Assembly (NCBI GenBank): GCA_034189135.1
Contig: JAXHVO010000089.1
Span: forward strand, 1-39,094
DNA from: Thermodesulfobacteriota bacterium
Lineage (GTDB): Bacteria; Desulfobacterota; Desulfobacteria; Desulfobacterales; JAUWMJ01
Reading direction: 5' to 3'
Length of the DNA: 39,094 nucleotides
The notes beneath the pieces were generated by a model. That model was not told where the DNA came from. It did not search any database and was given only the letters and a program-made list of their open reading frames with translations. Positions 14,522 to 15,735 of the stretch are shown piece after piece. A program made the translations under genes and the position numbers. The first letter of the stretch is position 1. The number at the start of each line of letters is the position of its first letter.

Positions 14522-14523
14522 TC
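14183..14523 (-). mobile_element. MITE-like inverted-repeat element, copy B
   Basis: 341-base element. The outer ends read GAGGGTTCGGAGAGTTTTTC on the left and, reverse-complemented, GAGAGGTCGGGGAGTTTT on the right. Inner arms 14217-14256 and 14415-14454 match as inverted repeats at 39 of 40 positions, yet differ from the arms of copy A at about nine positions. The flanks (TCTCTACTCAGT on the left, CTAACAATCATTAAAGC on the right) have the same orientation as in copy A, but the core between the arms matches copy A only as its reverse complement. It is bounded by an exact 8-base direct repeat and ends inside the stop codon of the peptidase gene. No transposase is encoded, so movement would need an enzyme supplied in trans. 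Confidence 0.8.
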
Positions 14524-15049
14524 AATCAAATAGAAATTCAGGAGCAAAGGGCATGCGCTTCAACACTCGATAATGAGAGCCAAGAATGCACAGGGGGTCC
14601 ATCAAAGTAAAGGTATTTGGATCGCCTATCGTCTCCCAGTCAAGTGTGTCATATGAGATATATTTGGATGCCCACCCCACTGAGATGTGCAAATGGGAAA
14701 GGGTTTTGGCTTTTGAGTTGTTCCAGTCAGCCAACGATACAATGATATCCCCTTCTTTTACGATCCTGCCAACATGAAGACCCCGGTGTGGGTTGGTGTG
14801 GCCGTAAATAGTACAAAATCTATTGTTATCGCTATCGGTGAAGCCATGTTCTATAATCACCGACTTGCCGATAAAATCATGGAACATCCCCACCACCGTT
14901 CCGTCATAACTTACCGGGATCTTGGTTTTTTCACCAAGACGGTGAATCATGCCCAGTCGATCCCGGTATAAACATACATCCAATCCCTGGTGAGGCTTAT
15001 TTCGCTTGCCCTGATCGTCCCACCATTTGTCCGACGCATTAAACAACAT
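14522..15049 (-). CDS. M23-type peptidase domain protein, start uncertain
   Basis: LytM/M23-like domain that would cleave peptidoglycan cross-links using zinc. The ligand pattern is complete: H20xxxD24 in PHQGLDV, and H119xH121 in SHLHIS; YGHTNPHRG lies between. The ATG at 15049 has no ribosome binding site and the frame stays open upstream for 53 codons with protein-like content (IDREVWRNKNIDDLTKTRFA), back to a TAG at 15212-15214 that is the stop of the next gene. No ATG, GTG or TTG occurs in that extension. A GGAGG precedes an in-frame ATT at 15143-15145. The real protein is therefore probably longer than the coordinates given. Its 3' end abuts element B, which supplies two bases of the TGA stop. 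Confidence 0.75.
   Translation of the reverse strand: MLFNASDKWWDDQGKRNKPHQGLDVCLYRDRLGMIHRLGEKTKIPVSYDGTVVGMFHDFIGKSVIIEHGFTDSDNNRFCTIYGHTNPHRGLHVGRIVKEGDIIVSLADWNNSKAKTLSHLHISVGWASKYISYDTLDWETIGDPNTFTLMDPLCILGSHYRVLKRMPFAPEFLFD
14524..14531. repeat. Target-site duplication, right copy
   Basis: AATCAAAT directly outside the right end of element B, identical to 14175-14182. On the minus strand this octamer encodes the last residues of the peptidase and the first base of its stop codon. Confidence 0.75.
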
Positions 15050-15211
15050 TTCGGGGTAGAAGATCCACTCTTGAAAACCATGATCATTCAGGAAATTCTC
15101 ATGGATGAGATGATGAGCAAATCTCGTTTTGGTTAAATCGTCAATATTTTTATTCCTCCAGACTTCCCGGTCAATTTTCTTTTGAACGTAGGACCTTTGC
15201 AGGCAATTAAC

Positions 15212-15622
15212 CTACTGGACAACTTCGAATTCAACCGTTTCCAACACTTCACCTGCCGGGTCAATCACATCTACATGCCATGCACCGATCTCGTGGGCCT
15301 GCAAAACTTTTGAACTGTAAGTACGCCAGGTATTTGCTTTTACCGGCAAAATTACACGGGCTCTTTCGGTATCACCAAAGTACCAGACATGTGAAATCTC
15401 TATGGGATTTTCAGCACCGACAATTTTGGTAAAACAAAAAAGTTTTCCCACCGTAACCGAAAAACTGGTATTTACATCCGCAGGTTCACGATCAACAATA
15501 TTTTCACAGACTGAAGCGGATTCGACCTTTATGGAATCTGTTTCCTGGGCGATTGCGTTAATGGTAAGAAAAAGGACCAGAGACAACAATGTAAATCCGG
15601 ATATTTTTAAATTTCGTTTCAT
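15212..15622 (-). CDS. Secreted DUF2914-like protein
   Basis: 136-residue exported protein. A signal peptide (MKRNLKISGFTLLSLVLFL, probably cleaved after INAIA) is followed by a beta-rich domain with ENPIEISHVWYFGD, TWRTYSSKVL and GAWHVDVIDPAGEVLETVEF. These are the hallmarks I associate with DUF2914, a domain of unknown function found in exported proteins of Desulfobacterota and relatives. Ribosome binding site AAAGGAGG precedes the ATG at 15622. It ends in TAG, and the peptidase frame continues directly in the same phase. Confidence 0.78.
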   Translation of the reverse strand: MKRNLKISGFTLLSLVLFLTINAIAQETDSIKVESASVCENIVDREPADVNTSFSVTVGKLFCFTKIVGAENPIEISHVWYFGDTERARVILPVKANTWRTYSSKVLQAHEIGAWHVDVIDPAGEVLETVEFEVVQ

Positions 15623-15735
15623 AACATTTCCTCCTTTTAGTGGATTTTTTTCTTAACTTTTGCTTATTTATCAATTATAGTACAGTATTTAAGCGAGTCA
15701 AATAAATTAAACTCCAAAGGAACAAAGGCAAAGAA

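Follow-up and report, generated by a model that had tools for sequence, protein, structure and literature searches.

An M23 peptidase-like gene without a conventional start codon, in frame with an upstream DUF2914 gene, and its possible ATT start

Two genes along one reading frame

The window (the whole stretch of DNA analyzed here, 39,094 nt in length) carries on its minus strand a DUF2914 gene and, downstream of it in the same reading frame, an M23 peptidase-like gene. The DUF2914 gene (15212..15622) encodes a protein of 136 amino acids, ends in TAG and is preceded by a GGAGG Shine-Dalgarno (SD) motif at 15630..15634, 7 nt before its ATG, found in the sequence and by motif scan. Its product matches Pfam family PF11141 (E 7e-19; 67.8 bits against a curated cut-off of 23.6), with profile positions 3-62 of 62 falling at residues 75-134 of 136. 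In this near full-length match at the C-terminus the protein is like other DUF2914 proteins, and nothing unusual relative to the family was seen in the window gene; its N-terminus has, by eye, a signal-peptide-like stretch. DUF2914 matches are present in 82 of the 116 genomes searched (its own, G000, included), and a literature search returned no paper that concerns the family by its title and the start of its abstract. A second DUF2914 match at a contig edge in a genome of the same genus (G002:C22:2-169) ends at 139, with the end of a dispersed repeat, described below, at 157-169.

Past the TAG at 15214-15212 the frame remains open through the M23 domain to a TGA ending at 14522. The first ATG, GTG or TTG after the TAG is the ATG at 15047..15049, 54 codons on. 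The original prediction had given positions for the TAG, a CTG (15202-15200), an ATT (15145-15143) and this ATG (15049-15047), all of which are correct on the minus strand, and had stated that no ATG, GTG or TTG precedes 15049 in frame; this holds, as does the openness of the intervening stretch, the length of which we count as 54 codons rather than the 53 given. The M23 gene is placed at 14522..15145 on the minus strand, 207 codons from the ATT at 15145-15143, its inferred start, to the TGA. A GGAGG that is probably its SD motif lies at 15155..15159, 9 nt before the ATT, and a stop-free intergenic gap of 66 nt with a possible repeat relic (15146..15211, minus strand) separates the two genes.

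The motifs HxxxD and HxH hold the zinc ligands of Peptidase_M23 (PF01551). The window product, scanned with a query that took in the 22 codons upstream of the ATT, matches this profile with an E-value of 1.7e-7 and 31.8 bits against a curated cut-off of 28.7, and it carries HQGLD and HLH, the same motifs being found in the eight relatives listed. Its frame is intact for 207 codons with both zinc motifs kept. Sharing the over-cut-off score and the two motifs with the family, the product of 14522..15145 is Peptidase_M23-like and a predicted hydrolase, whereas by eye it differs from the family in having no signal peptide. A comparison of N-termini across the M23 subfamily likewise revealed, by eye, no signal peptide, which is odd for a cell-wall peptidase. 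Searches with the M23 product returned no NCBIfam family and no solved structure (PDB, by sequence) at E<=0.01. Compared with a relative, L043, to which it aligns free of gaps from three codons past the ATT, the gene has pN 0.149 and pS 0.361 over 204 codons (dN/dS 0.34).

The gap and the case for separate genes

For codons of their composition, the 22 codons between the TAG and the ATT would form a stop-free run with a probability of 0.16, and the codon-usage score of the gap is 0.097 in the coding frame against 0.188 and 0.144 in the other frames; with a run this probable and no frame-specific codon bias, the common frame is no more than would be expected by chance. Most of the open stretch from the TAG to ATG 15049, described earlier as protein-like, belongs to the 5' end of M23; what calls for an explanation is the 22 gap codons, which have no coding bias.

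Judged by eye from the listed places, M23 lies beside DUF2914 in two genomes, G000 and G063, a count that covers the 29 M23-positive genomes of 116 and includes several M23 matches near contig ends. In G063 the M23 gene follows DUF2914 in a different frame, across a gap with further stops, and in two genomes of the same genus, G001 and G002 (75% and 73% complete), there is no M23 match and other genes follow DUF2914. A conserved in-frame continuation from DUF2914 into M23 is thus absent from G063, where M23 is out of frame, and from G001 and G002, which are without M23. The DUF2914 proteins of G001 (TAA), G002 (TAG) and G063 (TAG) have the same final VVQ, each with a stop where the window protein stops, and the TAG at 15214-15212 is, judged from sequence, the genuine terminator of the DUF2914 protein. 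A 4-nt tandem duplication shifts the frame within the M23 gene of G063 (contig C59; L012/L040), whose TTG is not preceded by any clear SD motif, and a 55-bp repeat copy lies between this gene and DUF2914.

These comparisons contradict the first reading offered by the original prediction, in which amber readthrough, by pyrrolysine or a suppressor, would yield an exported DUF2914-M23 fusion. The continuous frame favors such a fusion, as do the signal-peptide-like N-terminus of DUF2914 and its absence by eye from M23, but the relatives end DUF2914 at the matching residue, G001 with TAA, the M23 gene of G063 is out of frame with DUF2914, and the gap codons are without coding bias. For two of the pyl genes, the suggested check came out negative: neither PylS nor PylB exceeds its cut-off in G000, which is 95.5% complete (best scores 27.0 bits for PylS, cut-off 178, and 24.1 for PylB, cut-off 348). 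Matches at E<=0.001 also arise in 13 of 14 control genomes, with a single control exceeding the cut-off. Readthrough is extremely improbable, and the outcome removes one candidate for amber readthrough. DUF2914 and M23 are almost certainly separate genes, and their common frame a coincidence.

The gap also carries TGCAAAGGTCCTA at 15201-15189 (minus strand), which has two mismatches in 13 to the end of a dispersed repeat; the same repeat also lies in the G063 gap between DUF2914 and M23. Ten identical bases in the gap would occur by chance about once in 10,000, a figure to be read with the motif having been chosen after it was seen in G063. Over the whole window the repeat end is not in excess (4 matches with at most two mismatches to TTTGCAAAGGTC, against 7.1 expected), so the case for a relic in the gap depends on its place and on the 10 identical bases, and we consider 15201-15189 a possible repeat relic. 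The repeat is a MITE-like dispersed element with ends TGAGACCTTTGCA and TGCAAAGGTCTCA, observed in G000, G001, G002 and G063 (L091-L094, L096-L099). Its ends, allowing at most one mismatch, number 51, 190, 74 and 9 in these four genomes, against 2, 4, 2 and 1 in a reversed-pattern control; the 190 ends in the 2.3-Mb genome of G001 are dense, and the eight end-to-end intervals examined span 37-242 bp.

Where the M23 gene begins

M23 matches occur in 29 of the 116 related genomes and, in a wider draw within the order, in 136 of 389 genomes, the window's own included in both counts. The comparisons cover the best 30 loci at most from each search, and the weaker matches of the 389-genome draw are not among them. 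When the 116 genomes were searched with a query that included the 22 codons above the ATT, the best match started at a codon of at least 23 in 28 of 28 other genomes. Among 45 distinct loci aligned (duplicates and the window's own locus left out), 34 start at codon 20-31, six at codon 4-14 (L016, L020, L044, L053, L061 and L064), which we take as alignment slack, and five at codon 35-134, these last including contig edges, runs of N and divergent copies. A start at the CTG at 15202-15200, which is in frame and has a weak TAGG upstream, would lie above the zone where the relatives begin, 19 codons above the ATT and 14 above the NTG common to the near relatives, and within the gap that has no coding bias; initiation at this or another in-frame gap codon is very unlikely.

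A codon-by-codon trace of six near relatives (L043, L012 and L045-L048) places in every one of them an ATG, GTG or TTG aligned with the TGG at 15160-15158 of the window, five codons above the ATT. It is the sole NTG position common to all six, L043, L045 and L046 having a further ATG, GTG or TTG nine codons higher, and an ATT start is found in none of them (0/6), nor in any other relative read. Since the near relatives carry a conventional start codon five codons above the ATT position, remodeling of the start region is the best explanation for the window M23 gene. The closest relative, L037 (72%), was the sole relative among 28 pattern matches in a contig scan of named genomes and has a coding sequence identical to that of L043. 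Its M23 gene is preceded by AAAGGAGGAGAG and then TTG, with a GGAGG of its own, and the gene upstream is, by eye, transporter-like and not DUF2914. Homology between the GGAGG of L037 and that of the window would need a gap whose length is not divisible by three, and the alignment did not choose such a gap.

The first conventional start codon of the window gene, ATG 15049, was ruled out as the start. The 29 codons compared before it are conserved in L043 (pN 0.218, pS 0.531), which makes the ATG internal, and the comparison of orthologue N-termini, proposed as a check, turned up no start at this position. A check for five SD-like motifs finds none of them in the 22 nt preceding it, in agreement with the original prediction that it lacks a ribosome binding site.

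The real anomaly at this locus is not the common frame of the two genes; it is the missing normal start codon of the M23 gene. An error of one base or a local misassembly might conceal such a codon, the genome being a draft of 140 contigs and a run of five A standing directly before the ATT, but the region contains no N and the gap-free alignment with L043 begins three codons past the ATT; we regard this as unlikely.

Initiation at ATT

We propose that translation of DUF2914 stops at the TAG at 15214-15212 and that the M23 gene would be initiated anew behind the GGAGG at 15159-15155, most likely at the ATT at 15145-15143 read by the initiator tRNA. Such a start would be weak as well as sensitive to initiation factor IF3. 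Of the four readings in the original prediction, an ATT start behind GGAGG has the strongest support, and we put the probability that this ATT is the start in use at roughly 0.5. The pentamer GGAGG occurs 18 times on the minus strand in 39,094 nt, from which arithmetic gives a chance of about 0.5% that one falls within the 10 nt fitting a given start. Of the in-frame codons 3-13 nt past the GGAGG, only the ATT is one base from ATG, and the first ATG, GTG or TTG comes 32 codons past it. GGAGG also stands 7 and 8 nt before two other long open reading frames in the window, and an SD-like motif precedes 8 of 23 long open reading frames taken from their first ATG, some of which may have wrongly placed starts and some of which may not be genes.

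The serious rival, also named in the original prediction, is that the M23 start has been lost (the relatives' start being TGG here), that the gene is young and decaying, that the ATT is inefficient and that the GGAGG is accidental or a leftover. Of 56 columns that do not vary among eight relatives, the window product departs at 8, against 1 of 49 for each of L043-L046, a hint of relaxed constraint, but divergent relatives depart as well (L047 at 3/51, L048 and L050 at 5/53, L051 at 17/65). With L044 and L046 as outgroups, nonsynonymous changes number 25 in the window gene against 12 in L043 and synonymous changes 12 against 11 (binomial p 0.047; Fisher p 0.28 for nonsynonymous against synonymous); this nonsynonymous excess vanishes with L047 as outgroup (27 vs 25), and four other outgroup choices give p 0.06-0.22. 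The G063 gene likewise shows an excess over L043, with 28 nonsynonymous changes against 12 and 14 synonymous changes against 7. Apart from the window gene it is the one copy seen next to DUF2914, and it is broken by the 4-nt duplication and without a clear SD motif before TTG, which favors decay, as does the lack of an M23 match in the same-genus genomes G001 and G002 at 75% and 73% completeness. On the other side stand the 207-codon frame with both zinc motifs intact, the dN/dS of 0.34 against L043 and a GGAGG located where a start requires it. We judge a lost start in a decaying gene quite plausible, though short of even odds.

Non-canonical starts have precedents: infC starts at ATT in E. 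coli and at ATC in Streptomyces, Streptomyces sigR starts at GTC, IF3 represses such starts, and very few genes with non-canonical starts have been characterised (PMC5472188). The window's own genome probably offers another, as the part of its infC (L065, G000:C138) that runs from the upstream stop to the conserved domain holds no in-frame ATG, GTG or TTG, and GGGGGT stands before an ATA. Within the order, 11 of 20 readable infC loci (own included) have no in-frame ATG, GTG or TTG start, 24 loci (L065-L088) having been tried, four of them unmatched by the motif and L085 viewed over its nearest 62 codons only; in seven of these 11, an ATA or ATC follows GGAGGT at a distance of six nt. Given the non-canonical starts of infC and their repression by IF3, initiation at the M23 ATT is possible and would be weak. 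The M23 gene would be like infC and sigR in its rare start codon and expected repression by IF3, and stands behind a strong SD motif; it differs from them in that their starts were shown by experiment, whereas the M23 ATT is deduced from a single genome with no regulatory need known. More tentatively, a peptidase outside the translation machinery may here have acquired an ATT start on remodeling of its upstream region, which would bring it under IF3 fidelity control like that of infC.

Gene calling restricted to ATG, GTG and TTG starts would trim about 30 conserved codons off the M23 gene. If the ATT start is true, it would add to the few non-canonical starts described in PMC5472188 as experimentally characterised.
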